Positions 9,920 through 47,349 of a stretch of DNA of 64,000 nucleotides are shown here, in pieces. The stretch's first letter is position 1. Every line of letters starts with the position of its first letter. Source of the DNA: Prostheceraeus crozeri (taxonomy: Eukaryota > Platyhelminthes > Polycladida > Euryleptidae). The notes below the pieces were generated by a model. It was not told the DNA's origin. It was given only the letters and a program-made list of their open reading frames with translations, and did not search any database. The stretch covers positions 310,001 through 374,000 of the forward strand of contig CAJQUW010003146.1 of NCBI GenBank assembly GCA_907163375.1, written 5' to 3'. The translations under genes were made by a program, and so were the position numbers.

Positions 9920-9949
9920 AGTAGTAAGTAAAACTCCACTTCTGGATAG

Positions 9950-11420
9950 CGCAAGATGGCCGCCATCGAAAAATGGTCGCTGACGTCCCCCCTCTGGAAC
10001 CACAGAGGTTGTGGTCTGTCGTGGTGTGCCGGCCAGGTTGGTCCACGTGAACAAAATGTTCGCTGACGTCCCCCCCTCGATAAAACGACAGAGTGTCGTG
10101 GTGGACTTGGGCGACCGCCAGGTTTTGTCTTGAGGCTATAGTGTGTGATGATTTTCGTGAAATCTGTTGGGTTGAAAATGGGATGTTTCGAGTGGAAGCA
10201 GTGCTCGGATGGGAAAACGGAGGCCAGATTCGGATTCAGCGTGAAATTCTGCATCTTTATGGCGAATTTGAAAGCGATCGGAGAGAAAAATTTTCGCTGA
10301 CGTCCCCCCCGGCACCGACCTTCCAACTTTGCTTCTAGTGGACGGATTTTGTCGCGCAATAGCTCGTTTGAAAGCTAAGAGTGAGACAAATTCACTGAAA
10401 GAAAGGGCTTGTTCATATCTGTCTTCGTTTAGATGTGAGACGCCATTTAAGATTTTGGGAGATTGGCGAAAAACGACAGAGTTAGAATTTTGGACGTTTT
10501 GGGCTCTAGCGTCAAAACGAAGCATCGGATGGGAAAACGGATTTCAGATTTAGAATCAGCATGAAATTCTCTATCAACATGGTGAGTTTCAAGTCAATCG
10601 GAGAGAAAAAATTTTCAACATTTTTCGAAAAAACGACAGAGTTAGAATTTTGGACGTTTTGGGCTGTAGAGCCAAAACGAAGCATCGGATGAGAAAACGG
10701 AGGCCAGATTCGGATTCAGCGTGAAATTCTGCATCGGTATGGTGAATTTGAACGCCATCGGAGAGAAAAATTTTCGCTGACGTCTCCCCCCTCTGGACAG
10801 CTCGCTTCGATTTTGGCTTCCAGTGGACGGATTTTGTCGTGCCATAGCTCGTTTGAAAGCTAAGAGTGAGACAAATTCACTGAAAGAATCGGCTTGTTCA
10901 TATGTGTCTTCGTTTAGATGTGAGACGCCATTTAAGATTTTGGGAGATTGGCGAAAAACGACAGAGTTAGAATTTTGGACGTTTTGGGCTGTAGCGCCAA
11001 AACGAAGCATCGGATGGGAAAACGGATTTCAGATTCGGATTCAGCGTCAAATTCTCTATCAACATGGTGAGTTTCAAGTCAATCGGAGAGAAAAAATTTT
11101 CAACATTTTTCGAAAAAACGACAGTTAGAATTTTTGCGATGGCTGTGGGCTGTAGAGCCAAAACGAAGCATCGGATGGGAAAACGGATTTCAGATTTGGA
11201 ATCAGCGTCAAATTCTCTATCAACATGGTGAGTTTCAAGTCAATCGGAGAGAAAAAATTTTCAACATTTTTCGAAAAAACGACAGTTAGAATTTTTGCGA
11301 TGGCTGTGGGCTGTAGAGCCAAAACGAAGCATCGGATGGGAAAATGGACGCCAGATTCGGATTCAGCGTCAAATTCTACATGGAATTGGGGTATTTCCAG
11401 CTCAATCGGAGCACCAGAAC
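9950..11420. repeat. Left terminal repeat array of B
   Basis: Reverse complement of the array at 45830-47330. Units share the phrase CAAAACGAAGCATCGGATGG, the phrase GGAGAGAAAAATTTTCGCTG and runs of C (G on the other strand). The left array has fewer full ~324-bp units than the right one, so the two inverted termini differ in repeat number. Open frames over this region are repeat artefacts. Confidence 0.85.
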
Positions 11421-12905
11421 CGGAGATAGACGGATTTAAAGATTTGGATGATGGGTATTACGTCATCAGCTGATCGCCACATACTATATAAGCTGGGAAC
11501 CGACAGAGACTTGTCATTAATACGAGAGATTGTCAAAGGTAGGTCGTCTCTCTGAGCTCCGATGATGGCTTCGGACATTCCAAATTCCGGGTTTCTGTAA
11601 GAAACCGACTTAGAAAATTTCATTGCTGATATCAGCTAAGCCGTCAGACTTAGAGGTTAGCCAGGAGATGGCCTTCGTCTCCAGGCCATAAAAGACTCCA
11701 AAACTTTAAAGACTTGTAACTTTGCTTCTACAAGTCCGTTTGACTTGATTCAAAAAAGGTTCGGTCGCTTTTGACCTACCCTAAGTGATAGACTACTTAT
11801 AAAATTTCATAAGTAGCGCTAAAAAGTTGATAAATTTAAATTCACTAGTTTTGGAGGTTTTCTGGGGTTTTCGACCCTGCTGAAGTCAATGAAAGCATTT
11901 TTAATGATGTCTGAGCCAGTCTTCTCATGGTATAAGCGGCTTTTCACTGAAAGCGAGCAAGACACGGAGAGTTTTGCTGTAATATTCCACTGACAGGGTG
12001 TTCCTTCGGAGCGGCGGACGATGCCGTAGTGATAAGTGTGGCAAGGGAATGTATCATAGTTTAGACCGAAACCGCTGGGGCAACTCATGTCTCATGTTTG
12101 GCATTTGACACAGTTCTCAACGTAGCACTTTGAACGCCAATCGGTTGAGTCTTAGCCATCTTGTCATGGGTGGCCTCTAAACATCTCCATTGCAAAACGC
12201 TGGTGAATCAAGCTCTCTACGGCTTGCTATCAAGCTGCTCAAAGTCTGTCAACCTCTTACCAACTCTACAGGTTTTCATGTCTGGCGATCAAGTCATGGA
12301 CGGTGCAAGTCACGGAGATTTTCGGTGTGATACTTCCTTTCGACGGGCGTTCCTGTAAAGGGCGGCGGTGAAACCCGTAGCTATGTATACCGCAAGGGAC
12401 ATTCGGCAATGGTCAATCTTGTTAAACCTCTCTGCGTCATGTTTGCAAGTGATTGCCTCTGTCTCAACGTAGTATGCATTCGCGCCAGGGCGACATTTAG
12501 CCAACTGTCGAAGGTTGCCTTATAAACTTTCCATTGCATACGTTATGAGAACCATGAGTTCTACCTGTCTCTATCAATGAGACGAATTGATTAATGGAAT
12601 GAAATGGGAGGACACTCACGCGCCACACGCAACATAACACACTTCTATCTTCCGTAGTCTAACAAGCTCTTTACACATGGATTGCAGTCGATTGCTATCC
12701 CTGTATCAGAAGTGTAAGCTATCTTAATTTTATTTAACACTATTTCAACTACCATCATCGCCCATATGAAATGTTTTAAGATTTACAAGTTAGACTAAGC
12801 GTGCTACTATTTCCAAATGAAAAAGTATACATGGTTAAATCATCCACTGAAGCCCCATTCAAGTAAGTCAGTATGAAAGCAAAGATAATACGAAATAAAA
12901 ATTTA
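11421..12905. other. Subterminal segment of B, left arm, no supported gene
   Basis: Mirror of 44335-45830. It contains a conserved 170-bp block (11470-11700), and two related sub-segments around 11930-12080 and 12320-12500 that share a phrase built around CTCCGTG(A/T)CTTGC. Short open frames exist (for example minus strand 12504-12310) and are preserved in the three copies, but no family was recognised and nucleotide identity alone can explain this. Confidence 0.4.
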
Positions 12906-13358
12906 TTATGGCATGTATTTCAAAAGGTCTTCATCGTCAATATCGTCCCAGAGTCTGGCTTCACACAGATCACAAAAACAGTTCACTTGCTTCAATCGTT
13001 CTTCTACCGCGAGCCTCACTTTGTCGATGTACTCCCACTCCGCCATAGTTCGTGGCTGGGAGTTAGGGGTGTACCATTCCCATAATTGATGGAGGAATTT
13101 GATGCTGGTGATCTCCATCACATCATCAGTATCGTACTGCAGATGCTTCCATCGTATGCCTGTTAGGTCGGGACACTCCTTCTCACATACACTCTCTTCG
13201 TCATCCGCTGGTAATAACAACTTTCTAATGTTGTCGAGTCGGTATAATTTCTCCACCTTCCCCTTCGTTGTAGCGTTTGGTGCAACGAGCGCCTTTGGCG
13301 ATGAGCATGGAGAAGAGAACTCCAATTTTGTGTTCGATGTTTTTGGAGGGCTTGTCAT
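12906..13358 (-). CDS. 150-residue protein of unknown function (intact copy, left arm)
   Basis: ATG at 13358, TAA at 12906. The N-terminal third is Ser/Pro/Lys-rich and likely disordered; around residues 55-65 an acidic stretch is followed by SVCEKECPDLTGIRWKHLQ; the C-terminal half is helical and carries a CFCDLCEARLW motif and an acidic end. The paired Cys may bind metal. It diverges from the polymerase gene across a 277-bp shared upstream region. The right-arm copy has a premature stop and copy A retains only the C-terminus in the window. It could be an early regulatory protein by position, but that is inference. Confidence 0.6.
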   Translation of the reverse strand: MTSPPKTSNTKLEFSSPCSSPKALVAPNATTKGKVEKLYRLDNIRKLLLPADDEESVCEKECPDLTGIRWKHLQYDTDDVMEITSIKFLHQLWEWYTPNSQPRTMAEWEYIDKVRLAVEERLKQVNCFCDLCEARLWDDIDDEDLLKYMP

Positions 13359-13635
13359 GTTGACTGTGAATAATGACTTTGAAATGTTTTCTAATTCTTA
13401 AGTATAAACAAGCAACCAATCAGAATGAATAGCCAATGAATGATGAATATGAAAGTATATATGCAAAGTGACATTCGTGTCATTTCACTCTGTCTTTGAG
13501 ACGTATAAGTGAAGTGTTCTCTAGCGAATTCTGTTATTATTTGAGGCGTACAAGTGAACTGCTCTCTCGTGAATTCCAAATTGAGTGAAGTCTCTATCTT
13601 GTTGAAGTATCAACCTTAAACTTGATTTCGTTGAA
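13359..13635. promoter_or_regulatory. Divergent promoter region between the 150-residue gene and polB (left arm)
   Basis: Holds a TATATA sequence at 13456-13461 oriented for the polymerase, CCAAT sequences near 13415 and 13432, and two near-copies of a phrase built on GTACAAGTGAA / GTATAAGTGAA with GAATTC (13500-13575). The mirror region is 43587-43878. Confidence 0.45.
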
Positions 13636-16296
13636 ATGGTAAGTTGAAAATTTCTTCACTCATCTCCCTCAAACGTGTGGCTAATAGCATCTTCCTCAAT
13701 TTCAGGCATCAACTTCATCACCAACGCCCTCCCTTCTCGAGGAAAGTTTAGAGTTGTTGAGTCAAGGTAGGTTGTAACAATACACTGAGACTTGAACAGA
13801 GATGATAGAATGATTTCTCTTTCAGGTGATGTGAGTTCCAGCTCAGGACTCTCGCGACAAGGCAACGAGTGGGAATGTGCCGACTGCGGACATATGTTTA
13901 CAAGGAAGCACAGTCTCCTTCGACACATCAAACAACGTGTGTGTCAACGCAAAGCGGCATCAATCTCCGGATGTGAAGTTGATTCTGACGATGACATCTC
14001 CTTTCCTTGCGATTTGTGCCCTCTTTCTTTTGATAGTCACTTTCAGCGATCTTCGCACAGACTTCAACACACGCATGCAAATGATCACTACACCAACGGT
14101 ACCTCTACCATCTCCCTCATTAATGTTTCACATAATAATTTAGTACGCGACTACTGCATGGAGTCCAATACTCAAATAGTAGATTTTCCTGAGTGGCTCC
14201 TTCAAAATTCTAACATTATCGAAGCGCTCTTCAACAATTTAGACAATTTTAGAATGAAGGCGCTCATCTACCTTAAACTAAAATATATTAAGATAGATTT
14301 TCAAACGGGTCAAGTGACGGAGAGAATACAGTTTCATGTTCCTTCCTCTTCCGCAACCGAAGTTGTAGACTGCGAGTCTAGGCTAAATTTTCACATTCAA
14401 TGTTTAAAATCAAATGTAGATAAATTCAATCAACGCGACAGCGCTCTCATTTTTGATGGTGTGGACTCAGCCATATTCAAAATTTCCCTATTAGAAAGTC
14501 ATGCAGCTCGAGGCACATTTAAACTACCAAAAACGTTGTATAATAAGAAAGCTGTCATCAATGTTGATTGTAAATCACAGTGTTTCAAATATGCAGTCCT
14601 GTCCATCCTTCACTATAATGATATCAACGCGAATCGAAATCATACTTATAGCTATAGACAGTGGGAGGATGAACTAGACTTTGAAGGTTGTGATAGTGAC
14701 AACATGAAAATCAAAGATGTAGAAACGTTCGAAAAACATAATAAGATTAAAATTGTCGTTCACGTGTGGGAGAAGGGGTTGAAGGGTGCCCGCTATAATT
14801 CACGTTCAACTTGTTATGAACGTGTAGTCAACCTCTTATTAGTAAAACAAGATGATAGCGAGGAATGGCACTACTGTGGTATTCCCAAAATCTCTCGCTT
14901 GTACACTCACTTGGGGCACTCTAAAAGAGGTGAACATTTTGTATGCGACCGCTGCATCCGCTCCTTTTGGAGAAAAGATAAATTTGAAACTCACTATGAA
15001 TGGTGCAAGCGAGGTAAATTACAAATGGAACGCATGCCCAAAGATAAAATATTTTCACATAGGGATAATGGCGACGAATTAAGTCCCCTGCGTGTCATTT
15101 ACGCAGACATAGAATGCTACATTGATGATATCATCCACAAGCCAGCAGCCATATCCTGCTATGAAGTATGGCATGACCATTTTAGAAATAGGCAAAACAA
15201 AATGCATACTTGGCAAGGTGAAGATTGTATTTCAAAATTTCTAGAATTTCTCGATAAAGCTGCTAAATTTCAACAATCATATGATTCCCAATTGCAGTGT
15301 AAGTCACTACATATGTCAGATGAAGACAAACAGAAATTTGAAAGTTGCACATCGTGCCCTAAATGTCATAAAACGTTTGATGACGATAAAATTAAGAAAG
15401 TGCGTGATCATGATCACATTACTGGTAAATTTAGAAACGCACTCTGCTCCAAATGTAACTTTTCACTTAGGTTGAGACGTCGTGTACTACCCGTCATTTT
15501 TCATAACTTTAAGGGCTATGACAGTCATATGCTCATAAAAGGAGGGTTGAGCCAGATGAAATCGTGGCAGTTTAATGTAATAGCGAAAACGAGGGAAAAA
15601 TTCATGGCAATGACAGCAAAAGTAGCAGTAGATAAAACTAAAGAAAATAAGACAGTCTTCTTCGAAATAAAATTTTTAGATTCATTTTAATTCATGTCAG
15701 CGTCACTAGCTTCTCTCGTTCGTAATCTCAAGTTTCTTCCCCATAGTCAAACTTTGAAGAAACACTATCCAAACTTAACGGATGAAATAATCACTCGCAA
15801 AGGAGTCTTTCGCTATGCGTATTTTAGCTCAATGTCTAAACTAGATGAAACAACCTTTCCTTCCATTGACAAATTCCAAAACGATTTGACGGGTCAAGAT
15901 TGTCCAGTAGAGGACTATGAACATGCTCAAGAGGCATGGTTAAAATTTGATTGTAAAACGTTTGGCAATTATATGATCGCTTACTTAGAATTTGATGTCA
16001 TTTTGCTGGCTGATGTCTTTCAGGAATTTCGACGAGTGGCATTAGAAGAAGACAAATTAGATCCTGTCCACTTTGTCAGTCTACCAGCCATGTCCTTTAA
16101 ATCAGCCTTTAAAATGACTGGTGAGACCATCCATCTCTTACAAGACCCGGAGATGTATAACATATTTGAGCGCGGAATACGCGATGGTCTCACATTTGTG
16201 AATAAACATCACATAAAATCTAAAACAGTAGGTATGATCATATCCACCTAAAATACTATGACCAAAATAATTTATATGGCAATTCACTGTCTAAAC
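13636..16296 (+). pseudogene. polB: Protein-primed type DNA polymerase B, left-arm copy, 5' part (split by element C)
   Basis: The coding sequence starts with a one-codon exon (ATG 13636-13638), intron 13639-13705 (GTAAGT...TTTCAG), a 61-nt exon 13706-13766, intron 13767-13825 (GTAGGT...TTTCAG), then the long exon. Domains: a C2H2-like finger (CADCGHMFTRKHSLLRHIK, about residue 45), a second Cys/His finger, a large N-terminal region of the Polinton type, exonuclease motifs YADIEC, FHNFKGYDSH and YLEFDVILLADVF. Breaks relative to the right-arm copy: a stop at 15688-15690 (TAA where the other arm has CAA), a single-base loss near 16233, and the insertion of element C at 16297. The rest of the gene continues at 33654. 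Role in the family: copies linear element DNA using a terminal protein as primer. Confidence 0.85.
16291..16296. repeat. Target site duplication CTAAAC, left of element C
   Basis: CTAAAC occurs here and at 33648-33653; the uninterrupted right-arm copy has a single CTAAAC (reverse complement at 40922-40927). This proves the insertion point to the base. Confidence 0.97.
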
Positions 16297-16932
16297 AGTA
16301 ATGGGCAAAAGACCGTTCCAGGACACCATAAAATTCAAAAAATAGTATCTTTAAAAACGACATAAATTCATGAATTTAGACCCTTTTTCAGATTTTTAAG
16401 ACCTAAATTCATGAATTTAGACCGTTCCAGGACACCATAAAATTCAAAAAAATAGTATCTTTAAAAACGACATAAATTCATGAATTTAGTCGTTTTTAAA
16501 GATACCGATTTTTCAAAAAAATGGTACTTTTTAAATGGTCTAAATTCATGAATTTTGGTCATTTTTCAGGTTATGAAGACCTAAATTCATAAATTTAGGC
16601 GTTTTTAAAAATACCCAATTTTCAAATTTTTCAAAATCTCAAATTTGTGAATTACAATTTTTACCTTGAAAATCATGACCGTTCCAGGACACCGAAAATC
16701 ATAAAAGTTAAGAATCTGAAAATTTGAGAATTACAATTTTTACCTTGAAAATCATGACCGTTCCAGGACACCGAAAATCATAAAAGTTAAGATTTTCAAA
16801 TTCATGAATTTTATCCATCTTTCAGGTTTTTGAAATATATCATGTGACTAAAAATATTTCTTTAAAAATGGAAGAAACAAAAGTGGATGAAACAAAAGTG
16901 GAAGAAACCGCAAGAATATATCCTTCGTTATC
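16297..16932. repeat. Left terminal inverted repeat of element C
   Basis: Pairs with 33049-33647. It is built from iterated units: the palindrome AAATTCATGAATTT occurs about five times with variants, and the phrase GACCGTTCCAGGACACC occurs at least four times. The repeat runs into the first ~22 codons of the gene starting at 16868. Iterons at the ends of a protein-primed replicon are a plausible origin/terminal-protein recognition region. Confidence 0.9.
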
Positions 16933-17539
16933 ATATGAACGTAGTTCTACTTTAATGGACATTGAAAAGATAAACATCGAAAAGATGAATAAAGAAAAAC
17001 ATAAAGACAGAGTTAGGTATATGAAAGATAAAGAATCTCAATTATTATTAAGATTAGAGCATTATAAAAAATTAAGAAAGAGATGGACTAAAGTTAAGAA
17101 TGTAACACAAGGAATTGGCATATTCTTAACAATAAGTTTAGGTGCTTTAACAATTGTTATATCTTCAGGTGTTTTAGTAATTCCAGTAGTTGCTACAGCT
17201 TTAACAGGTACGGGTGTTTTTGCAACTTCACTTGTTACAATGTTAGATAAATCTTTAATAACTAAGAAACGAAAATCATTAAAAACTAAGCATTTACATA
17301 TTAAAGAAGTCTATGATAAACTACACTACTACTTTCAAAGAGTATGTGATGATAATGTTATTACGTTAGATGAGATTGAAAAATTTGATCAAATAGCTAA
17401 TGAAGTAAATCAAATATCATTTCAATTACAGTCAGAAAAAGTTGATGATAAGAATAAACAGGATGGCAAAATTTCTAGTGATGGTAAAACTTTTACTGAT
17501 GGTAAAATTGCTAATGAAGAAAATGATAAATTTTTTTAG
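16868..17539 (+). CDS. Membrane-hairpin protein, ~223 residues
   Basis: The ATG at 16868 (in an AAAAATG context typical of this element) is preferred to an in-frame GTG at 16844. The protein has a charged coiled N-terminal half, two adjacent hydrophobic segments (about residues 85-105 and 108-130, IGIFLTISLGALTIVIS and VLVIPVVATALTG) and a C-terminal repeat of the type DGKI/DGKT. The T7 run at the end suggests a frameshift: a related frame continues to about 17650 with coiled-coil character, while an overlapping frame from 17525 encodes a very basic peptide. The start of the gene lies in the terminal repeat. Function is unknown; a membrane protein is inferred. Confidence 0.65.
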   Translation: MEETKVDETKVEETARIYPSLSYERSSTLMDIEKINIEKMNKEKHKDRVRYMKDKESQLLLRLEHYKKLRKRWTKVKNVTQGIGIFLTISLGALTIVISSGVLVIPVVATALTGTGVFATSLVTMLDKSLITKKRKSLKTKHLHIKEVYDKLHYYFQRVCDDNVITLDEIEKFDQIANEVNQISFQLQSEKVDDKNKQDGKISSDGKTFTDGKIANEENDKFF

Positions 17540-17716
17540 AAGAGCTAAAAACTTTAAGCGAAAATTTAAGCAAAACTTTATTAAACAAAACTTAAAACGA
17601 GAAAACTTTAAACGAAAAGATGTCAGACAACAAAGCAATAAAAAAATAATTTGTTCAGTAAAATGTTTTTGTTGTATTCCAATGTTACCACAAAATTCAA
17701 ATATTATATTTTAAAA

Positions 17717-18472
17717 ATGGATAAAATTAAAGCTGATAATTTTAAAAGAATAAAACAATTAGAAGAGTTAATAAAACAAAGAAATATTATGAAAGAAAAT
17801 CATCTTCAACATAGAATGATAAAAGCTGGTATTCAATCTGATATGTTTGAAAAAATGCAGCAAACCGAACAAGTAAAAACTGATTTTAAAAAAACTATGA
17901 AACCATTTAAAACTCTTGAAAAAGAACTTACAAATAATGATAAACAAATTGATATAACAGATCCAGAGCACAAAACTATATTAGATGACTATGGATTACT
18001 AGAATCAAACATTAATAAGAAATTACCAAAATCTATGCAATTTGAACATTCTATTTCATTTATAGATGGAAAAACAATACCTAGATTTTATCTCGGACTA
18101 AAAGAAATATTTCCACAACCTTTTCGAGGTTTAATTTTTTCACCAGATAAATCTCCTTTTAATTTAGATAGAAATTTTGTTGATCTTTTAAGAGGAGCAG
18201 ATTTAAATAATTATGCTGTAGAAGATCTCATAAAATATAAAGCTATGTTAGATAGAGTTGGTGCAGTAAAATCTCTTAGACGTTATAAACAATTAGAAAA
18301 TTTATTATCAACGGGAGTTAAAGTAGGAAAAGGTTTTAAAACTGAAACAACTGTATTTTTACCAGATGATCCACAAGAATTACTAAATAGATTAAATATT
18401 TTAATATCTGCAATAAAAGAAGGTCATAATTCTAGTTTCAATGAAATTCATGCCATATTAAAAGACTGTTAG
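17717..18472 (+). CDS. Conserved-looking 251-residue protein, unknown function
   Basis: ATG at 17717 in the AAAAATG context; an earlier in-frame start at 17651 is less likely. The N-terminal 75 residues are a lysine-rich coiled coil; the middle contains IPRFYLGLKEIFPQPFRG, then SPDKSPFNLDRNFVDLLRGADL, then an RRYKQLENLLSTG helix. The layout resembles unnamed conserved proteins of Polinton-like elements that sit next to penton and ATPase genes, but I do not know an activity. Confidence 0.65.
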   Translation: MDKIKADNFKRIKQLEELIKQRNIMKENHLQHRMIKAGIQSDMFEKMQQTEQVKTDFKKTMKPFKTLEKELTNNDKQIDITDPEHKTILDDYGLLESNINKKLPKSMQFEHSISFIDGKTIPRFYLGLKEIFPQPFRGLIFSPDKSPFNLDRNFVDLLRGADLNNYAVEDLIKYKAMLDRVGAVKSLRRYKQLENLLSTGVKVGKGFKTETTVFLPDDPQELLNRLNILISAIKEGHNSSFNEIHAILKDC

Positions 18473-18514
18473 AAAAGAAGATTCTAAATGAAGAGGATTA
18501 CAAAAGTATAACGA

Positions 18515-18540
18515 ACCGATGGTTCTAGGGCTTCGCCCGT
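18515..18540. repeat. GC-rich mini-hairpin repeat, intergenic copy
   Basis: ACCGATGGTTCTAGGGCTTC followed by GCCCG. The second half is a GGGC-GAA-GCCC hairpin (GCGAAGC core on the minus strand). It stands out as a GC island in an AT-rich spacer. Related copies are at 23017-23042 and 25837-25865. Confidence 0.75.
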
Positions 18541-18622
18541 AGCTGAAATATGTTGCTGTTTTTAATTTTTTATAAAAAAAATATTTCATAAAAAAATATT
18601 TATTCAAAATTTTAACTAAAAA

Positions 18623-19411
18623 ATGTGTTCAGCAGATTTAGACAAAATTAATAATCATTTAGAAAATTTGACAGAAATTTTGGGTTCATCAAAATTTAGT
18701 ACGACGTTAAAAATTATAACAACTACTTCATCACACACTTGTAATTTAGAACCCATTCTTCATTTAGAACAGAATAAAAATTATCAAATTGCATTGACTA
18801 GTTTCTCCACATTTAACACTATTCAAAACGTTATCAAAGATGTGAATGATCAATTTAGATATTCTACTGATAAAGGCAAAACGTGGAAAGTACTAACTTT
18901 TCTTCCTGGTTCTTACGAAGTTGATTCAATATCAAATGAAATTAAGAGACATTTAGGTATAGCATTCAAAGATAAGAAACAATTACATTTTGCAGTTGAA
19001 CCGGCAGTTAATAAATTTTCTCTTACTTTAGACGAAAATCATCAAGTTGATTTTAATCATGATAGATCATTGTCAAAGCTATTAGGATTTAATAAACAAA
19101 CCTATAGTCAAGGTTATCATTTAGGTGAGAAGATTCCAAAAATAACTGAAATAAATTCAATTGTTGTACATTGTGACATTATTGAAGGAGGATATATAAA
19201 TGGTAAATTATCAAATTTAATATTCAGTTTTCCAGCTTTTACTGTACCCATTGGTTATAGACTAAATGTAATTCCACAAATATTAATATATTTCCCTATT
19301 ACAAGAAAAACTATTAACAACATTAACATGAGAATCACTGATGAGAAAGGACAAGAAATAAATTTTGGAGGTGAAGAGATTATGATAGATCTTTTGGTTC
19401 GGGAGGTATAA
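18623..19411 (+). CDS. Penton-type minor capsid protein
   Basis: 262 residues with the landmarks of the Polinton/adintovirus penton (single jelly roll): NKNYQIALTSFSTFNTI near residue 50, a W-containing turn, LPGSYEVDSISNEIKRHLG near residue 95, a LLGFNKQTY stretch near 155, the IVVHCDIIEGGYINGKLSN strand near 180, and an ITDEKGQEINFGGEEIMIDL ending. This is the usual order in the family and the length is normal. It lies just upstream of the packaging ATPase. The last codons and stop are formed by a GC-rich repeat (19395-19450), so the original C-terminus may have been altered by that insertion. Confidence 0.88.
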   Translation: MCSADLDKINNHLENLTEILGSSKFSTTLKIITTTSSHTCNLEPILHLEQNKNYQIALTSFSTFNTIQNVIKDVNDQFRYSTDKGKTWKVLTFLPGSYEVDSISNEIKRHLGIAFKDKKQLHFAVEPAVNKFSLTLDENHQVDFNHDRSLSKLLGFNKQTYSQGYHLGEKIPKITEINSIVVHCDIIEGGYINGKLSNLIFSFPAFTVPIGYRLNVIPQILIYFPITRKTINNINMRITDEKGQEINFGGEEIMIDLLVREV

Positions 19412-19450
19412 ACTCCCGTTCGAGAGGTATAAACTCCCACGCGAAGCTAG
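19395..19450. repeat. GC-rich repeat at the 3' end of the penton gene
   Basis: Two copies of GAGGTATAAACTCCC in tandem, each a small hairpin (GGGAG...CTCCC), followed by ACGCGAAGCTAG with the GCGAAGC core. It overlaps the penton stop codon. Confidence 0.7.
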
Positions 19451-19551
19451 AGAAGTTTAATTTTCTTCTTCTTATTATTATTCTTCTTATTCTTCTTCTT
19501 TAGAAACAAAAATTAAAAATAAAATTAAAAATAAAATTTTTTTATTAAAAA

Positions 19552-20357
19552 ATGAGTGAAGTACTACCATTAAATAAAAAAAAACTTAAATTTTATCATC
19601 ATCTAAATTTATCTAATAAAGTTTTGTCAGTTATTTGTGGAAGATCAGGATGTGGAAAAACGTACCTATTATTTAAAATTTTAACGACTCCACATTTTTT
19701 GGATTATAACAATCTTATAATTTATACAACAACAGCAGAACAACCCGTCTATCAATTTTTAAAATATGGATTTGAAAATAATCTTAAAAAAACAGCAATT
19801 GCTTCATTATTCAAAGAATATGAAAAATCTGAAGATGAAGAAGAAATAAGTTCGTGGTGTGAAGAAGCAGCAAAAAATAATCAGTTAGTTGAATCCAATA
19901 AAAATAAGCATATAAAGATACAATTAATAGATGATAGTGGTAATATGCAAGATCCTAGTAAACTAGATAAAACAATGAAACATTGTGTAATTTTTGATGA
20001 TTGTGTTAATGATAGAAATCAGTCAGTTCAGAGAAATTATTTCACAAGAGGCAGACATAATAACTGTAGTGTTTTTATTTAACACAAAGTATGTATTCAT
20101 TAGACGGAAGTGTTATTAGAAAGAATGCAAACATATTTATACTATTTGAAATAAATGCAAGAAACTTAAGTGATTTGTTAAGAGATTTATGTGTAAGAAA
20201 TAAAGATGAATTTAAACAATCGTGTAACAATGCTTGGTCAAAAGATTATGGCTTCATTACAATTAATATTGATAAAAAAATTCATGAAAGAGTTATCGAA
20301 CAAGAAAGTCGATATAAGATATTGTTTGCCGGAGTGATAAAAGATATACAAATATAG
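19552..20357 (+). pseudogene. FtsK/HerA-type DNA-packaging ATPase (A32-like), frameshifted
   Basis: ATG at 19552. Walker A is GRSGCGKT (about residue 35), Walker B is HCVIFDD (about residue 145), and after a single-base frame change near 20065-20080 (a T-rich run) the frame continues at 20091 with the sensor/arginine-finger part (YSLDGSVIRKNANIFILF) to the stop at 20357. The combined length of about 265 codons fits the family. In related viruses this enzyme pumps genomic DNA into the capsid. The frame change may be a sequencing error. Confidence 0.88.
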
Positions 20358-21552
20358 TGTTATAATATTTTTTTTATTTTATGTATATATCAAATTTGTC
20401 TATCTTAGAAATTAGAAAATTAAAAAGGTGAAGTAGTTATTCCATCAGGTAAAATTTTTCTTTTATCATCAAATGGATCTAATGCTAATTTATGTTCTTC
20501 TTTTAAATACATTTTATGTTTCTTTGAATTAAGTCTATAATTACATGCTGTTTTTATTTCATTATTAAATAATACATTCTTATAATCTTGAAATGTTATT
20601 TGATTAGCCACTGATGCCTTTGAAATTCCTTTTAATGTTTTATGTGTTTTAATATTATTAGTTGTATCATAACAATAACATTTAGATTTTGAAAATATAG
20701 CTTCTGTTATGAAATTTTCATTTCCTTCTAATTCATCTTTTACTTTACATAAATCAGAAGGATGAATGATATCTTTTATTTTATTAATTTCTTCATCAAG
20801 TGAAGAATTATACGGTATTGTTAATTCTAAGAAAACAGAATCGGTATCTGTAAAGTGTAATTTATAGTTTTTGCCATAAGCAGGTGCTAAATAATCATAT
20901 ATAAATTTATACATAAATAGTTTAGCTAATTCTAATATAGTGAATCCAATAAAATTAAACTTATCATGTTTTACGCTAATTCGACGTAAATGTACAGCAC
21001 ATAGTTCATCACTAAATCTAGTAGTTCTTTTATATGTAGGTTTCCTTGTTAAATTTTGAAACCTATCTTTATCATAAACTATTTCGATATTTTGTCTATT
21101 ACGCACATTTTCTAAAGTCTTACCATAAAATGCATTATTCATTAATTTGAAGAACACGTTTCCAAAATCATCTTTATTTCTTTTAGCTATTTTACGTTTT
21201 TCAATATTGAACTCTATATAATTTTTTAACCATTTAGATTTTTGATAAAATAGTTTTCGATGTATTTTGGTGAGAATCATTCGATGTTCTAAATACCAAT
21301 CTAGCATTCTTTCTTCAACAACATACTTTCCTTTATTACTTTGTGTTAACATAAGTTTTTTTGTTGGTCTGTATTTTTTAGGAATTATAGATTTTTGATA
21401 ATCTGAAAAATCTTCTATATTGGGAATTTTGTTTTCGGGACAGAAAGGAAAATATTTTGTTTTATCTTTTATTTCATCAGGATATACTAAATCAACTTCA
21501 TATATATAACCATGATTATAATTTCCATCATATGTTTTTTGATAATCTAGAA

Positions 21553-21585
21553 CGGGCGAAGCCCTAGTAGACATCTCTGATGACG
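21553..21585. repeat. In-frame GC-rich mini-hairpin repeat (polB)
   Basis: GGGCGAAGCCCTAGTAGACA and following bases; the minus-strand gene reads it as SSEMSTRASP. Same unit, strand and reading frame as at 23072, 24648 and 24805. Confidence 0.85.
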
Positions 21586-37500: not shown

Positions 37501-37532
37501 AATGTGTGTAGTCCTGACATGATAGAATCAAA

Positions 37533-37548
37533 GCGTTTGTCAAGTTCA
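37533..37548. other. Centre (loop) of the giant palindrome
   Basis: The 16 bases GCGTTTGTCAAGTTCA separate the perfect mirror halves ...GATAGAATCAAA and TTTGATTCTATC.... The inner several hundred bases of the arms are almost identical. Confidence 0.9.
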
Positions 37549-37579
37549 TTTGATTCTATCATGTCAGGACTACACACAT

Positions 37580-39110
37580 TTGATTTACAAAACATGCTTT
37601 GAATACTTATACGATGAAGTTCTTACTTTCATTTATTTCTAACGCACACACTGTTGAAACTTTATTTTTCAACTTGTAAACTGTTGAAACTTTATTTTGT
37701 TTCTAACATATAAACAGCTAAAACTTTATTTCTAACGTACACACTGTTGAAACTTTATTTTTAACTTGTAAACGGCTGAAACTTTATTTCTAACACACAA
37801 AGCGCTTAAACTTTATTTCCATCATACACACTATTGAAACTTTATTTTAATCTGTAAACTGTTGAAACGATATTTTTCATTTACAACTAGTAGAATGCTG
37901 CGTCTAACTTGCAAACTAGTAAATCCTACGATCGTACTTTACAAACAGATAAAACTTTATTTCTAACGTAGACACTGTTGAAACTTTATTTTTAACGTAC
38001 ACACTATTGAAACTTTATTTTTAACTTGTTAACGGTCGAAACTTTGTTTTGTTTCTAACATACAAACAGATAAAACTTTATTCTTAACTTGTAAACTGAT
38101 GAAACTTCATTTTATTTCTAACATACAAACAGATAGAACTTTATTCTTAACATACACACTATTGAAACTTTATTTTTAACTTGTAAACGGTTGAAATTTT
38201 GTTTTGTTTCTAACATACAAACAGATAAAACTTTATTCTTAACTTGCCAACTGGTGAAACTTCATTTTATTTCTAACATACAAACAGATAAAACTTTATT
38301 CTTAACATGCACACTATTGAAACTTTATTTCTAACGTACACACTATTGAAACTTTATTTTTAACTTGTAAACTGGTGAACCTTCATTTTTATTTCTAACA
38401 TACAAACAGATAAAACTTTATTCTTGACATACGCACTATTGAAACTTTATTCTTAACTTCTAAACTATTGAAACTTTAATTTTAACTTGTAAACGGTTGA
38501 AACTTTGTTTCTAACGTACACATTATTGAAACTTTATTTTTAACTTTTAAACTGGTGAAACTTTATTTCATTTCTGACATACAAGCAGATAAAACTTTAT
38601 TCTTAACTTGTAAACTGGTGAACCTTCATTTTTATTTCTAACATATAAACAGATAGAACTTTATTCTTAACTTGTAAACTATTGAAACTTTAATTTTAAC
38701 TTGTAAACGGTTGAAATTTATTTTATTTCTAACGCACAAACGACTAAAACTTTATTTCTAACGTACACACTGTTGAAACTTTATTTTTAATCTGTAAACT
38801 GTTGAAACTATATCTTTCGTTTACAAATAGTAGAACGCTTAGTCTAACTTGCAAACTAGTAAATCCTACAATCTCATTTTACAAACAGATAAAACTTTCT
38901 TTCTAACGTACACACTGTTGAAACTTTATTTTTAATCGACAAACTGTTGAAACTCTATTCTATTTCTAACATACAAACAGCTTAAACTTTATTTTTGACA
39001 TAAACACTATTGAAACTTTATTTTGTAATCTGTAAACTGTTGAAACTATATCTTTCATTTACAAATAGTAGAACGCTTAGTCTAACTTGCAATCTAGTAA
39101 ATCTTGTTCG
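37580..39110. repeat. AT-rich minisatellite, right of the palindrome centre
   Basis: Reverse complement of the left array with the same unit types but fewer higher-order repeats. Unit order near the centre is the same in both arms and drifts apart outward. Confidence 0.9.
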
Positions 39111-39132
39111 TCATCGAATCTAACTGTTTAAA

Positions 39133-39420
39133 TCTTCATCATGGAAATCAATGTTCCACAGTCATTTGAAAAAGATATGATCGCCCCAAAGTGATTTGAT
39201 TCTACCTATTTCCGTTGGTGAGAAAAAATAATACATTTTACGTGATTTCATTCATGATAAAGACGCTTCATATGGAATAGTCGAGATGTTTGAATCTATT
39301 TTCTATCACCCCGTCGTCAAACAAACTATACCCTCTATTGCTATCAAAATTACCAATGGTTTACAAGAGTGCATCCATGTGAAAGATACTAAATCCCTCG
39401 TAACTTTATTGTTTCGGAAA
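39133..39420 (+). pseudogene. Decayed coding fragment near the palindrome centre
   Basis: Read on the plus strand with frame changes, the region yields protein-like stretches such as SYGIVEMFESIFYHPVVKQT and ITNGLQECIHVKDTKSLVTL. No family was recognised. It is mirrored at 34985-35260 in the left arm. Confidence 0.4.
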
Positions 39421-39484
39421 ACAAAGTGAAGTCATTGTGATATGTTTATTGAAATAAAAATATGTGTATGAAAAAGTCTTTTCA

Positions 39485-39570
39485 CAGATATAGGGGAATG
39501 GGCTGACTGTAGGCATATATTCACAAGGAAGAAACGATCTCATGCGATACATAAAACAACCATGTATATC
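39485..39570 (+). pseudogene. Decayed copy of the polB N-terminal zinc-finger exon
   Basis: GGGCTGACTGTAGGCATATA and ATTCACAAGGAAG align over ~75 bp with the finger-coding part of polB at 13872-13945 (TGCCGACTGCGGACATATGT and TTACAAGGAAG). It lies opposite in orientation to the right-arm polymerase, just beyond that gene's 3' end. Confidence 0.65.
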
Positions 39571-39607
39571 TACAAAAAGCAACATCAAAATACTGAGTTA
39601 AAGTTGA

Positions 39608-42600
39608 TTATGTCAATACATCTCCTGAATGTGGTAGCGTGAGTTTTATTCTTTTGGGTGGAGGTATGTTTGTGTGAGGATGTCCATGTGGAAGAGATGT
39701 GTTATGTCCTATCCAACACCTCTTATCCTCCCCTGCTGAAAGCGCTCGTTTCTTGAACTTGTGCGTTTTCACAGTATGAACTTGAGATTTTAAGATTGTC
39801 ATATTGACAAACGTTATAGTTTTATTTTTATAGGCCTTTTTATAGGACCGATGTTTCATTTTGTGAACAATGGATTTTGATATACCTTTTAGCACGCTTA
39901 ATACTATCTGCACATTCTTTTAATTTCATGGAATACATTTTAGGACGGAGGAGAATCATTTCATCTATTTCCTTTCCTGCTGTTTCATCCTTAAAACAAC
40001 CAAGTTTGGCTTTATTCTGTATAGAATAGAGTGGATGAGTGGGATTGTAGTTAGATGTGTCGAAATATTTTTCTAATGACTTAGCTACTTCATTAAAATT
40101 TAAATCTTTTTGAGTGGTAATACCTAGGAAGAAACTATCTGTATTACCACCCAACAAACGAACCTCTTTTACGAGAGGACATGGTTTTAGTATTTTATAA
40201 AAGAGTTGGTACATTTCAAGCTTAGAGTAATCTAGTACAGCTTGGCCAATATAGATGGGCTTGCACAACTCAACTTCAGATTTTATCATTTTAACACCTA
40301 CAAGGTCCTCATCGATAATGTCTCTATCAATGAAAAGAGGTGATGAGGTCAATTTGTGATATTTTTAATCATCAATGACTAGTTTGTAGTTCATGCGTTT
40401 TCTAACATCCTCCATCGTCTTACCAAATAGACTATTATTCTTATACTTATAAAAATCTTTTTCAAAATTATTTTGGGCTGGTGCACGTTTCTGGCTGTTA
40501 CTATCAATATATGGTTTGAGGAAGGCTTTCTGTCTAAATTTAATGATGCGGTGAACTGACTTTAGAAGCATGCCCATTTCTAAATAGAGTTTTAGTATGC
40601 AGAAGTGTACGAGATAATTTTTCTTATCATATTGGGTGAGTACAAGTTTGCGGCATGGTTTGTACCTTGGCTGTCCACACTCTGTTAAGTTATTATGAAA
40701 TTGTGACATGAATGGTGAAAACATATCTTCAGTCACTTCACCAGATTCAGGTGCGAGTGGGAAATCAGCAGTTTTATTTTTAATACTATTTGGATAAATC
40801 AAATCCACTTCAAAATAATATCCCCAATCACCTGCATCTGGAATCTTCAGAATGTTTGAAGGGTTGGAGTAATACGCAAGCTCATCTTGATTTAACCAAC
40901 TAAACTCGGAATGAGGTAGTGGTTTAGACAGTGAACTGCCATATAAATTATTTTGGTCATAGTATTTTAGGTGGATATGATCATTACCTACTGTTTTAGA
41001 TTTTATGTGATGTTTATTTACAAATGTGAGACCACCGCGTATTCCGCGCTCAAATATGTTATACATCTCCGGGTCTTGTAAGAGATGGATGGTCTTACCA
41101 GTCATTTTAAAGGCTGATTTAAAGGACATGGCTGGTAGACTGACAAAGTGGACAGGATCTAATTTGTCTTCTTCTAATGCCACTCGTCGAAATTCCTGAA
41201 AGACATCAGCCAGCAAAATGACATCTAATTCTAAGTAAGTGATCATATAATCGCCAAACGTTTTACAATCAAATTTTAACCATGCCTCTTGAGCATGTTC
41301 GTAGTCCTCTACTGGACAATCTTGACCCGTCAAATCGTTTTGGAATTTGTCAATGGAAGGAAGGGTTGTTTCATCTAGTTTAGACATTGAGCTAAAATAC
41401 GCATAGCGAAAGACTCCTTTGCGAGTGATTATTTCATCCGTTAAGTTTGGATAGTGTTTCTTCAAAGTTTGACTATGGGGAAGAAACTTGAGATTACGAA
41501 CGAGAGAAGCTAGTGACGCTGACATGAATTGGAATGAATCTAAAAATTTTATTTCGAAGAAGACTGTCTTATTTTCTTTAGTTTTATCTACTGCTACTTT
41601 TGCTGTCATTGCCATGAATTTTTCCCTCGTTTGCGCTATTACATTAAACTGCCACGATTTCATCTGGCTCAACCCTCCTTTTATGAGCATATGACTGTCA
41701 TAGCCCTTAAAGTTATGAAAAATGACGGGTAGTACACGACGTCTCAACCTAAGTGAAAAGTTACATTTGGACCAGAGTGCGTTTCTAAATTTACCAGTAA
41801 TGTGATCATGATTACGCACTTTCTTAATTTTATCGTCATCAAACGTTTTATGACATTTAGGGCACGATGTGCAACTTTCAAATTTCTGTTTGTCTTCATC
41901 TGACATATGTAGTGACTTACGCTGCAATTGGGAATCATATGATTGTTGAAATTTAGCAGCTTTATCGAGAAATTCTAGAAATTTTGAAATACAATCTTCA
42001 CCTTGCCAAGTATGCATTTTGTTTTGCCTATTTCTAAAATGGTCATGCCATACTTCATAGCAGGATATGGCTGCTGGCTTGTGGATGATATCATCAATAT
42101 AGCATTCTATGTCTGCGTAAATGACACGCAGGGGACTTAATTCGTCGCCATTATCCCTATGTGAAAATATTTTATCTTTGGGCATGCGTTCCATTTGTAA
42201 TTTACCTCGCTTGCACCATTCATAGTGAGTTTCAAATTTATCTTTACTCCAAAAGGAGCGGATGCAGCGGTCGCATACAAAATGTTCACCTCTTTTAGAG
42301 TGCCCCAATTGAGTGTACAAGCGAGAGATTTTGGGAATACCACAGTAGTGCCATTCCTCGCTATCATCTTGTTTTACTAATAAGAGGTTGACTACACGTT
42401 CATAACAAGTTGAACGTGAATTATAGCGGGCACCCTTCAACCCCTTCTCCCACACGTGAACGACAATTTTAATCTTATTATGTTTTTCGAACGTTTCTAC
42501 ATCTTTGATTTTCATGTTGTCACTATCACAACCTTCAAAGTATAGTTCATCCTCCTACTGTCTATAGCTATAGGTATGATTTCGATTCGCGTTGATATCA

Positions 42601-43586
42601 TTATAGTGAAGGATGGATAGTACTGCCAATTTGAAACACTGTGATTTACAATCGACATTGATGACAGCTTTCTTATTATACTACAACGTTTTTGGTAGTT
42701 TAAATGTGCCTCGAGCTGCATGACTTTCTAATAGGGAAATTTTGAATATGGCTGAGTCCACACCATCAAAAATGAGAGCGCTGTCGCGTTGATTGAATTT
42801 ATCTACATTTGATTTTAAACATTGAATGTGAAAATTTAGCCTAGACTCGCAGTCTACAACTTCAGTTGCGGAAGAGGAAGGAACATGAAACTGTATTCTC
42901 TCCGTCACTTGACCCGTTTGAAAATCTATCTTAATATATTTTAGTTTAAGGTAGATGAGCGCCTTCATTCTAAAATTGTCTAAATTGTTGAAGAGCGCTT
43001 CGATAATGTTAGAATTTTGAAGGAGCCACTCAGGAAAATCTACTATTTGAGTATTGGACTCCATGCAGTAGTCGCGTACTAAATTATTATGTGAAACATT
43101 AATGAGGGAGATGGTAGAGGTACCGTTGGTGTAGTGATCATTTGCATGCGTGTGTTGAAGTCTGTGCGAAGATCGCTGAAAGTGACTATCAAAAGAAAGA
43201 GGGCACAAATCGCAAGGAAAGGAGATGTCATCGTCAGAATCAACTTCACATCCGGAGATTGATGCCGCTTTGCGTTGACACACACGTTGTTTGATGTGTC
43301 GAAGGAGACTGTGCTTCCTTGTAAACATATGTCCGCAGTCGGCACATTCCCACTCGTTGCCTTGTCGCGAGAGTCCTGAGCTGGAACTCACATCACCTGA
43401 AAGAGAAGTCATTCTATCATCTCTGTTCAAGTCTCAGTGTATTGTTACAACCTACCTTGACTCAACCACTCTAAACTTTCCTCGAGAAGGGAGGGCGTTG
43501 GTGATAAAGTTGATGTCTGAAATTGAGGAAGATGCTATTAGCCACACGTTTGAGGGAGATGAGTGAAGAAATTTTCAACTTACCAT
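39608..43586 (-). pseudogene. polB: Protein-primed type DNA polymerase B, right-arm copy (uninterrupted, with point breaks)
   Basis: Start ATG 43586-43584; introns 43583-43517 and 43455-43397 mirror those of the left copy; the end is the TGA at 39608. Breaks: a TAG at about 42683 (a 3-bp insertion), a TAG at about 42556 (TGG in the left copy), and frame changes near 40358 and 39880. Motifs: N-terminal finger, exonuclease YADIEC, FHNFKGYDSH, YLELDVILLADVF; polymerase A YDQNNLYGSSLSK, B KNNSLFGKTMEDVRKRMN, C LLGGNTDSFFLG. Motif C has Asn in place of the first Asp of the usual DTD. The C-terminus is basic and His/Pro-rich. Length about 1280 codons, normal for Polintons. Confidence 0.88.
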
Positions 43587-43878
43587 TTCAACGAAATCAA
43601 GTTTAAGGTTGATACTTCAACAAGATAGAGACTTCACTCAAATAATACGTTTCAAATTTGGAATTCACGAGAGAGCAGTTCACTTGTACGCCTCAAATAA
43701 TAACAGAATTCGCTAGAGAACACTTCACTTATACGTCTCAAAGACAGAGTGAAATGACACGAATGTCACTTTGCATATATACTTTCATATTCATCATTCA
43801 TTGGCTGTTCATTCTGATTGGTTGCTTGTTTATACTTAAGAATTAGAAAACATTTCAAAGTCATCATTCACAGTCAAC
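43587..43878. promoter_or_regulatory. Divergent promoter region, right arm
   Basis: Mirror of 13359-13635, with the same TATATA (about 43776-43782), CCAAT-type and GAATTC-linked repeats. Confidence 0.45.
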
Positions 43879-44334
43879 ATGACAAGCCCTCCAAAAACAT
43901 CGAACACAAAATTGGAGTTCTCTTCTCCATGCTCATCGCCAAAGGCGCTCGTTGCACCAAACGCTCCAACGAAGGGGAAGGTGGAGAAATTATACCGACT
44001 CGACAACATTAGAAAGTTGTCATTACCAGCGGATGACGAAGAGGAGAGTGTATGTGAGAAGGAGTGTCCCGACCTAACAGGCATACGATGGAAGTATCTG
44101 CAGTGAGATAGTGATGATGTGATGGAGATCACCAGCATCAAATTCCTCCATCAATTATGGGAATGGTACACCCTTAACTCCCAGCCACGAACTATGGCGG
44201 AGTGGGAGTACATCGACAAAGTGAGGCTCGCAGTAGAAGAACGATTGAAGCAAGTGAACTGTTTTTGTGATCTGTGTGAAGCCAGACTCTGGGACGATAT
44301 TGACGATGAAGACCTTTTGAAATACATGCCATAA
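43879..44334 (+). pseudogene. 150-residue family protein, right-arm copy with premature stop
   Basis: Parallel to 13358-12906. A TGA at 44104-44106 (TGCAG-TGA where the left arm has TGCAG-TAC) ends the frame at 75 codons; the frame then reads to the normal end at 44334. One extra codon lies in the Glu run near 44040. Confidence 0.7.
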
Positions 44335-45829
44335 TAAATTTTTATTTCGTATTATCTTTGCTTTCATACTGACTTACTTGAATGGGGCTTCAGTGGATGA
44401 TTTAACCATGTATACTTTTTCATTTGGAAATAGTAGCACGCTTAGTTTAACTTGTAAATCTTATAACATTTCATATTGGTGATGATGGTAGATGAAATAG
44501 TGTCAAATAAAATTAAGACAGCTTACACTTCTGATACAGGGATAGCAATCGACTGCAATCCATGTGTAAAGAGCTTGTTAGACTACGGAAGAGAGAAGTG
44601 TGTTATGTTGCGTGTGGCGCGTGAGTGTCCTCCCATTTAATTCCATTAATCAATTCGTCTCATTGATAGAGACAGGTAGAACTCATGGTTCTCATAACGT
44701 ATGCAATGGAAAGTTTATAAGGCAACCTTCGACAGTTGGCTAAATGTCGCCCTGGCGCGAATGCATACTACGTTGAGACAGAGGCAATCACTTGCAAACA
44801 TGACGCAGAGAGGTTAAAGAAGATTGACCATTGCCGAATGTCCCTTGCGGTATACAATGCTACGGGTTTCACCGCCGCCCTTTACAGGAACGCCCGTCGA
44901 AAGGAAGTATCACACCGAAAATCTCCGTGACTTGCACCGTCCATGACTTGATCGCCAGACATGAAAACCTGTAGAGATTGTAAGAAGTTGACAGACTTTG
45001 AGCAGCTTGATAGCAAGCCGTAGAGAGTTTGATTCACCAGCGTTTTGCAATGGAGATGTTTAGAGGCCACCCATGACAAGATGGCTAAGACTCAACCGAT
45101 TGGCGTTCAAAGTGCTACGTTGAGAACTGTGTCAAATGCCCAACATGAGACATGAGTTGACCCAGCGGTTTCGGTCTAAAATGTGACACACTCCCTTGCC
45201 ACACTTATCACTACGGCATCATCCGCCGTCCCGAAGGAACACCCTGTCAGTGGAATATTACAGCAAAACTCTCCGTGTCTTGCTCGCTTTCAGTGAAAAG
45301 CCGCTTATAGCATGAGAAGACTGGCTCAGACATCATTAAAAATGCTTTCATTGACTTCAGCAGGGTCGAAAACCCCAGAAAACCTCCAAAAATGATGAAT
45401 TTAAATTTTTCAGCATTTAGCACTATTTATAAAATTTTATAAGTAGTCTTTCACTATAGGTCTGGTCAATAGCGATCGACTCTTTTTTTAATCAAGTCAA
45501 AAGGAGTTGTAGAAGCAAAGTTACAAGCCTTTAAAGTTTTGGAGTCTTTTATGGCCTGGAGACGAAGGCCATCTCCTGGCGAACCTCTAAGTCTGACGGC
45601 TTAGCTGATATCAGCAATGAAATTTTCTAAGTCGGTTTCTTACAGAAACTTGGAATTTGGAATGTCCGAAGCTATCATCGGAGCTCAGAGAGACGACCTA
45701 CCTCTGACAATCGCTCTCGTCTGAATGACAAGTCTCTCTCGGTTCACAGCTTATTATATAATGTGTGGCGATCAGCTGATGACGTAATACCCATCATCCA
45801 AACACTAAAAACCCGTCTATCTCCGGTTC
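44335..45829. other. Subterminal segment of B, right arm
   Basis: Mirror of 11421-12905. No supported gene. Contains the same short conserved frame (44736-44930) and the 170-bp block at 45540-45800. Confidence 0.4.
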
Positions 45830-47330
45830 TAGTGCTCCGATTGAGCTGGAAATACACCATTGCCATGTAGAATTTGACGCTGAATCCGAATCTGGCCTCC
45901 GTTTTCCCATCCGATGCTTCGTTTTGGCTCTACAGCCCACAGCCATCGCAAAAATTCTAACTCGAAAAATGTTGAAATGTCGTTTTTTCGAAAAATGTTG
46001 AAAATTTTTTCTCTCCGATTGACTTGAAATTCACCATGTTGATAGAGAATTTGACGCTGATTCCAAATCTGAAATCCGTTTTCCCATCCGATGCTTCGTT
46101 TTGACGCTAGAGCCCAATACGTCCAAAATTCTAACTCTGTCGTTTTTCGCCAATCTCCCAAAATCTTAAATGGCGTCTCACATCTAAACGAAGACAGATA
46201 TGCACAAGCCCTTTCTTTCAGTGAATTTGTCTCACTCTTAGCTTTCAAACGAGCTATTGCACGACAAAATCCGTCCACTAGAAGCAAAGTTGGAAGGTCG
46301 ATGCCGGGGGGGGGACGTCAGCGAAAATTTTTCTCTCCGATTGCTTTCAAATTCACCATACAGATGCAGAATTTCACGCTGAATCCGAATCTGGCCTCCG
46401 TTTTCCCATCCGATGCTTCGTTTTGACGCTAGAGCCCAAAACGTCCAAAATTCTAACTCTGTCGTTTTTCGACAATCTCCCAAAATCTTAAATGGCGTCT
46501 CACATCTAAACGAAGGCAGATATGAACAAGCCCTTTCTTTCAGTGAATTTGTCTCACTCTTAGCTTTCAAACGAGCTATTGCACGACAAAATCCGTCCAC
46601 TAGAAGCAAAGTTGGAAGATCGGTGCCGGGGGGGGGGGACGTCAGCGAAAATTTTTCTCTCCGATTGCTTTCAAATTCACCATACAGATGCAGAATTTCA
46701 CGCTGAATCCGAATCTGGCCTCCGTTTTCCCATCCGATGCTTCGTTTTGACGCTAGAGCCCAAAACGTCCAAAATTCTAACTCTGTCGTTTTTCGACAAT
46801 CTCCCAAAATCTTAAATGGCGTCTCACATCTAAACGAAGACAGATATGAACAAGCCGTTTCTTTCAATGAATTTGTCTCACTCTTAGCTTTCAAACGAGC
46901 TATGGCACGACAAAATCCGTCCACTAGAAGCAAAGTTGGAAGATCGGTGCCGGGGGGGGGGGGACGTCAGCGAAAATTTTTCTCTCCGATTGCTTTCAAA
47001 TTCACCATACAGATGCAGAATTTCACGCTGATTCCAAATCTGGCCTCCGTTTTCCCATCCGAGCACTGCTTCCACTCGAAACATCCCATTTTCAACCCAA
47101 CAGATTTCACGAAAATCATCACACACTATAGCCTCAAGACAAAACCTGGCGGTCGCCCAAGTCCACCACGACACTCTGTCGTTTTATCGAGGGGGGGGAC
47201 GTCAGCGAACATTTTGTTCACGTGGACCAACCTGGCCGGCACACCACGACAGACCACAACCTCTATGGTTCCAGAGGGGGGGACGTCAGCGACCATTTTT
47301 CGATGGCGGCCATCTTGCGCTATCCAGAAG
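45830..47330. repeat. Right terminal repeat array of B
   Basis: Three successive ~324-bp units start at about 46090, 46413 and 46737, each ending in a G run of 8-12 followed by GACGTCAGCGAAAATTTTTC. Units differ by few substitutions. Long open frames on both strands (231 codons) are produced by the repeat and are not called as genes. Confidence 0.88.
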
Positions 47331-47349
47331 TGGAGTTTTACTTACTACT

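Follow-up and report, generated by a model that had tools for sequence, protein, structure and literature searches.

Protein-primed linear viruses such as adenovirus give rise to fold-back (snap-back) defective genomes, in which the same origin stands at both ends and the molecule is a palindrome of one genome end. Here, we describe element A, an integrated palindrome at positions 9920-47349 of a 64,000-nucleotide stretch of the flatworm Prostheceraeus crozeri genome (the window; contig C2611, positions 310001-374000, of a 2.05 Gb assembly). Like Polintons/Mavericks, A has tips of the type AGTAGTAAG..., a 6-bp target duplication and polB, whereas no integrase, capsid, protease or ATPase was detected in its arms, and two mirrored copies of one end surround a hairpin. 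Unlike the snap-back genomes, it belongs to a kind that has become fixed in a genome in many copies, which have target duplications and a hairpin centre in common. The preliminary description of the locus had read A as one snap-back dimer keeping the polymerase half. The integrated palindrome of the polB half stands; the single dimer does not, A being one of 69 palindromic places that include a second family built on the same hairpin, and the snap-back origin itself is what we infer.

Foldback-like transposons (FB, Galileo) share with A the long, internally repetitive inverted repeats that form most of the element, and the first Galileo copies found were, in the excerpted text of the Galileo paper, long inverted repeats alone (PMC3573991). 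According to the same excerpt, however, Galileo has a P-superfamily transposase (PMC3573991), whereas the tips and the presumed enzyme are here those of Polintons, and the arms carry polB. Teratorn (herpesvirus-piggyBac) is also a virus-like integrated element with long inverted repeats, but it measures 41-182 kb and has a unique region beside its repeats, its own transposase and 18-bp ends; the excerpted text of its report does not mention a palindrome of a polB end (PMC6431247). Literature searches returned no palindromic Polinton family among the matches listed. Inverted-repeat transposons and Polintons are both known; two abundant palindromic Polinton families with one hairpin in common did not appear among those matches. 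With a probability of roughly 0.6, we propose that A belongs to a high-copy family of non-autonomous palindromic Polintons, which would have had a free linear form replicated from its ends, been re-copied by fold-back at the hairpin and been integrated in trans. The palindromes were integrated as units, with Polinton tips and 6-bp duplications, one group of them was copied as a unit, and their arms recur in identical and mixed combinations.

The ends of A are mutually inverted (AGTAGTAAGTAAAAC...) and flanked on either side by CACATA, just as first described, and the single target duplication bears out the insertion, as one unit, of an integrated palindrome keeping the polB half. An empty CACATA site, also envisaged in the preliminary description, was not found: a search with A's joined flanks returned just its own two flanks. 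The left arm comprises 9920-16296 plus 33648-37532 and the right arm 37549-47349, with the following features.

9914-9919, plus strand: target duplication CACATA, left copy
9920-16296, plus strand: left arm, outer part, with terminal repeat, tandem repeats (10205-11381), 150-amino-acid (aa) gene and 5' part of polB
12906-13358, minus strand: 150-aa gene, left arm; no Pfam match
13792-16251, plus strand: polB, left arm; weak zinc finger and endonuclease VII domain; one stop, then cut by nested element C
35204-37532, plus strand: left half of the centre module; a minisatellite built from 29/63-bp units that includes a 245-bp tandem duplication at 37040-37529
37533-37548, no strand: loop of the central hairpin, 16 nt; most of the other scored copies have 10 bp more
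37549-39186, minus strand: centre module, right half; outer boundary common to A and the two type-2 palindromes read
39187-47349, minus strand: right arm outside the centre module, with polB, 150-aa gene, tandem repeats and terminal repeat
39840-43430, minus strand: polB, right arm; three open pieces
43879-44331, plus strand: 150-aa gene of the right arm, with 95% identity to its left-arm counterpart
47350-47355, plus strand: target duplication CACATA, right copy; joined flanks match only themselves

An alignment of the two arms, as suggested in the preliminary description, gave three BLAST blocks of 94.9% identity at the tips (9920-10614 against 47349-46648), 96.9% over 5196 columns (11146-16296 against 46116-40922) and 98.7% over 1254 columns (34697-35949 against 39695-38443). 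The arms are 0.4-10% apart depending on the region, and the divergence was uneven, with substitutions per 250-bp step ranging from 0 to about 9%. It came to 0.4% for the outermost 250 bp and about 1% within polB, but to 4-8% between 11.4 and 12.2 kb and to about 9% in places within the tandem repeats. The mirror symmetry that had been described for everything except element C holds for the aligned arms and for the 71 bp on either side of the loop, which match perfectly. In the left arm, however, about 33708-34690 is unreadable, and the minisatellite halves are unequal in length; the tandem duplication of the left half reaches the centre.

A is a derivative and not an autonomous Polinton. No integrase was found by eye in the list of open reading frames (ORFs) of its arms, nor among the five arm ORFs scanned, and those five contained no protease, packaging ATPase or capsid gene. 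The polB pieces gave endonuclease VII and zinc finger matches, but at E 0.01 none of them matched a polymerase model; PF03175 is present in some homologues that are more distant. Whereas polB had initially been taken as spliced, 54 of the 62 scored polB matches in the genome are a single open frame of at least 1204 aa, and the splicing was rejected. The polB of A is probably unspliced, its pieces looking like ordinary damage. Differences per sites between the right-arm polB and other copies were 31/415 synonymous and 20/1730 nonsynonymous for C2611, 10/290 and 18/1207 for C9582, and 173/323 and 142/1312 for C8600, while the left and right arms of A differed at 7/372 and 10/1521; these counts suggest constraint. 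The 150-aa protein had two homologues in a search of 5.8 billion proteins. Relatives from IMG/VR (one locus) and prokaryote bins (nine loci) were rejected as palindromic homologues, since none has a long inverted repeat, although these sequences are distant (26-36%) and short.

The search for further palindromic copies succeeded, and A is one of 69 palindromic places counted in the host genome. Of these, 40 were recognized by their centre, A among them, a further 28 solely by gene pairs that face each other, and one is a half-read place upstream of the window. Each probe was scored on its best-matching candidates only. With the centre of A as a probe (best 40 of 921 candidates, A among them), all 40 places matched all 202 bases on both strands at 89-100% identity. 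With the 3' end of A's polB (best 40 of 1224), 26 of 40 matches stood in 13 facing pairs spanning 2.4-7.3 kb and none the opposite way; with the 150-aa gene (best 40 of 2618), 18 of 40 stood in nine facing pairs, besides one tandem pair. At C12861, the distance from polB to the 150-aa gene was 4691 bases in one arm and 4690 in the other. A 176-aa ORF taken from the palindrome at C4832 placed 20 of 40 matches in ten facing pairs, 1.3-4.8 kb apart (best 40 of 1575).

Ordinary Polintons served for comparison. The copy at C2611:262391-289892, read whole, has the same tips as the palindromes and the duplication CTCTAA. It encodes an integrase with rve and chromodomain, a C48-type protease scoring just under the curated cut-off, a polB broken by an insert like a long interspersed nuclear element (LINE), and an ATPase-like ORF named by eye from its P-loop, with no Pfam match. 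In the ordinary copies C9582 and C8600, polB stands on one side only and the opposite end bears a short repeat; C3434, partly read, includes an element of the C type. Probes from the ordinary copy paired rarely: its polB 3' part placed 4 of 40 matches in two facing pairs, C5409 and C11544 (best 40 of 92 candidates), and for its integrase DNA a single inverted pair, C3469, accounted for 2 of 40 matches, besides the tandem pair C6772 (best 40 of 1399). At the protein level, 4 of 102 scored integrase matches formed two inverted pairs, C3469 and C7333 (counted by eye). Because palindrome-derived probes pair often and ordinary-copy probes rarely, the palindromes are distinct lineages and not general assembly noise. 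Most intact scored polB genes lie in unpaired copies; therefore, as read from the assembly, pairing marks particular subfamilies, not one gene nor the assembly at large. We do not claim that pairing is specific to one end, as polB and integrase DNA, both taken from one ordinary copy, pair about equally rarely. Since unit copying, the target duplications and the shared hairpin are independent of the integrase comparison, these revised controls leave the odds given above unchanged. The inverted integrase pairs at C3469:60327-64288 and C7333:330496-345850 are possibly a third, rarer palindrome type.

Terminal inverted repeats with a 6-bp target duplication are present in A, C4832, C12695 and one ordinary copy, and ordinary and palindromic elements use identical tips and 6-bp duplications. 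Among the palindromes, tips and duplication were established in A and C4832, both read whole, and in C12695 from its tips (duplication GACGAC), its arms being shown by the inverted pair of 150-aa genes. Four of six tip pairs examined had a perfect 6-bp duplication, C5039 had one mismatch and C9824 had additional bases; of these six elements, just C12695 and C9824 are known to be palindromic. A lone assembly error behind the palindrome of A is ruled out by the other loci, the target duplications and the rare pairing of ordinary-copy genes. Against the preliminary worry that the assembly might be collapsed or doubled at the centre stand those loci and their duplications, not reads.

There are two palindrome families: type 1, represented by A, consists of the left end with polB, and type 2 of right-end genes with a left-end cap. 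A complete type-2 palindrome lies at C4832:42892-60698, with the duplication CACATG. Its arms are 99.0% identical over 4.8 kb and 98.0% over 1.2 kb, the right one has an extra stretch of about 3 kb, and they lack most of polB. The left-end cap comprises the terminal repeat, a 297-aa ORF and residues 80-150 of the 150-aa gene; it is followed by a 204-aa and a 176-aa ORF, which in an ordinary copy adjoin the far terminal repeat. Another palindrome of this type runs into the start of the window and was read over its centre and right half.

1-4309, minus strand: second (type-2) palindrome, outer right arm; hairpin centre upstream of the window, at about 305.8 kb of the contig

As a side observation, a second subtype of terminal repeat (AAACGGCGAACAC after the tip) is carried by the ordinary copy C8600 (L019, L022) and, on the opposite strand, by the palindrome that begins the window (4230-4320).

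Both families are joined by the centre module. Homology between the type-1 arm and three ordinary copies extends as far as 39187, inside a 516-aa ORF of one of them, and the minisatellite module starts where this homology stops; the module was not found in these three ordinary copies. In the two type-2 palindromes read, a module with the same outer boundary and hairpin core is joined beyond the 176-aa ORF. The boundary is identical in both contexts, GATATGATC followed by G or A and CCC. The hairpin of L039 folds with a z of -13.6. The loop lacks symmetry, and copies with either orientation of it exist. At C11544, the arms continue beyond the boundary into polB-side sequence on both sides and are 99.4% identical over 900 bp.

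The arms near the centre could be compared at 19 of 20 loci, L038 being dropped as it had no exact anchor. Seven loci had arms 0-0.5% apart, and at L039 and L050 the arms agree at 1592 of 1592 bases. At L043, L044, L048 and L052, the left arm is common to all (0.00%) and the right arms are about 0.1-0.8% apart, while left and right arms differ by 7-8% with 254-256 gap columns. Because these four loci share both unlike arms, one palindrome was copied whole to four places. Their right-arm type recurs as both arms of L053, and their left type as one arm of L042. At the eight remaining loci, the arms are 5-17% apart.

For the fold-back family proposed above, the family's polymerase, presumably protein-primed, would replicate an extrachromosomal linear form, starting at both of its identical ends. 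The hairpin centre could then fold back displaced or nascent strands so that one arm is copied into the other, producing homopalindromes, while faithful copying would maintain the two-arm forms. Insertion would be by the integrase of ordinary Polintons, in trans. Such an enzyme is available, as had been presumed: the integrase protein matches are 98-100% identical, and 99 of 102 are free of stops (best 102 of 27346 candidates). More tentatively, each Polinton end may have founded a self-complementary satellite lineage, replicated and re-copied through the shared hairpin and parasitic on ordinary Polintons for integrase, leaving germline-fixed, high-copy defective genomes of an integrating DNA virus, whose arms reassort between copies. 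To our knowledge, Polinton replication outside the chromosome is largely unobserved. Arms that record rounds of copying (identical arms, two-arm forms, flipped loops) would offer testable evidence on fold-back replication and on trans-mobilisation by a Polinton integrase, and would preserve, as fossils, the defective and satellite-like genomes that a virus-like element has produced. Genome stability and assembly are further matters on which large palindromes in such numbers bear.

Several observations weigh against this proposal. Across the 19 loci, arms within a copy are only slightly closer (mean 6.1%, median 6.8%) than arms between copies (8.6%, 7.8%), and those of L054-L056 are 16-17% apart. 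The uneven divergence along A is unexpected from whole-arm copying alone, and chromosomal gene conversion could likewise equalise arms. A's own polB copies are broken. The pair fractions hold for each probe's relatives, and 36 of 40 matches of the ordinary polB DNA probe are unpaired. The best 62 polB protein matches include one close pair, C9220 (frames of 1255 and 1274 aa), and the 1.25 kb fetched between its arms contains minisatellite in a single orientation and no hairpin. Finally, all of the evidence comes from an assembly.

The chief rival is chromosomal, and we consider it unlikely, albeit worth weighing: double-strand repair would have copied increasing lengths of one end onto the other until the unique middle was lost, and the palindromes would have been transposed passively. 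An expansion of this kind (end1-F1-F1-end2) is proposed for Galileo in the excerpted paper, which also states inverted-repeat expansion of Polintons as reported (PMC3573991). The type-2 arms resemble a right end capped with left-end sequence, including a cut 150-aa gene, and such conversion may have made this cap; the uneven divergence along A and a mean within-copy distance just below that between copies also suit it. By itself, however, expansion does not supply one hairpin with the same boundary, joined to two Polinton regions and not found in three ordinary copies, and arms identical letter for letter at some loci alongside two-arm forms fit replication better.

Still less probable is the entry into Polintons of an independent, foldback-type minisatellite transposon, whose hairpin broke and inversely duplicated the carrying end once per family. 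The module does end at the same base in both contexts and is built of inverted 29/63-bp repeats, like foldback elements. However, all 12 arms that reach the boundary (from 10 of the 20 fetched centre loci) run into polB-side sequence, and no free-standing copy turned up, albeit in a centre search that favours A-like copies and with no special search made. Such an origin of the module could hold together with the fold-back family.

Very improbable is an artefact of missed-adapter fold-back reads, for which one can cite the uncorrected raw reads that A and C10082 appear to contain, the four of 40 centres lying within 2 kb of a contig start and the perfect arms of L039 and L050, but which leaves unexplained the 6-bp duplications that agree between the two outer ends although the flanks are unlike, the diverged arms with a nested element in just one of them, the same asymmetric palindrome at four places and the rare pairing of ordinary-copy polB and integrase.

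Two further features lie in the left arm of A.

16297-33647, no strand: nested Polinton C, with polB, an ATPase-like gene, double jelly-roll capsid and PLA2 plus rve; left arm only
33708-34690, no strand: G-depleted stretch, left arm; probably uncorrected raw read

Element C has its own inverted ends and the duplication CTAAAC, whose left copy has an additional A. Since the right arm of A retains the uninterrupted site of C, the insertion of C came after the palindrome had formed. One ORF of C (30365-31605) combines a PLA2-like domain with the rve integrase domain, the PLA2-like domain coming first. A C-type copy is also present at C3434 (L030-L032), within or next to the polB of a further A-type element.

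The G-depleted stretch includes 687 nt without G (33708-34394), the next longest such run in the window being 77 nt, and the kilobase around this run contains ten G. Its length is about right for a counterpart of the other arm, and its likeness is weak: it scored 326 against the right arm, compared with 262 +/- 12 for shuffles and up to 316 for unrelated pieces of the window. It is probably an unpolished raw read minus one base channel. Hypermutation from G to A was ruled out, C reaching about 0.43 with no base-for-base alignment to the other arm. C10082 (L029, C10082:6000-12138) has a comparable stretch of 1094 nt, with 872 G, 207 T and no C, near the end of a 12-kb contig; it is raw-read noise in the assembly. 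The G-free stretch thins the support for the left arm, yet it sits 2.8 kb from the centre.

Elsewhere in the window, two fragments resemble, by eye, a LINE reverse transcriptase (7073-8114) and a Penelope-type GIY-YIG ORF (51387-52322, no Pfam match). A row of ORFs, mostly on the plus strand, occupies 52621-63018, including an ATPase-like ORF (61828-63018, weak AAA match) and one at 54416-55099 that by eye is like the 176-aa right-end protein. This row is probably a further, diverged Polinton-type element.

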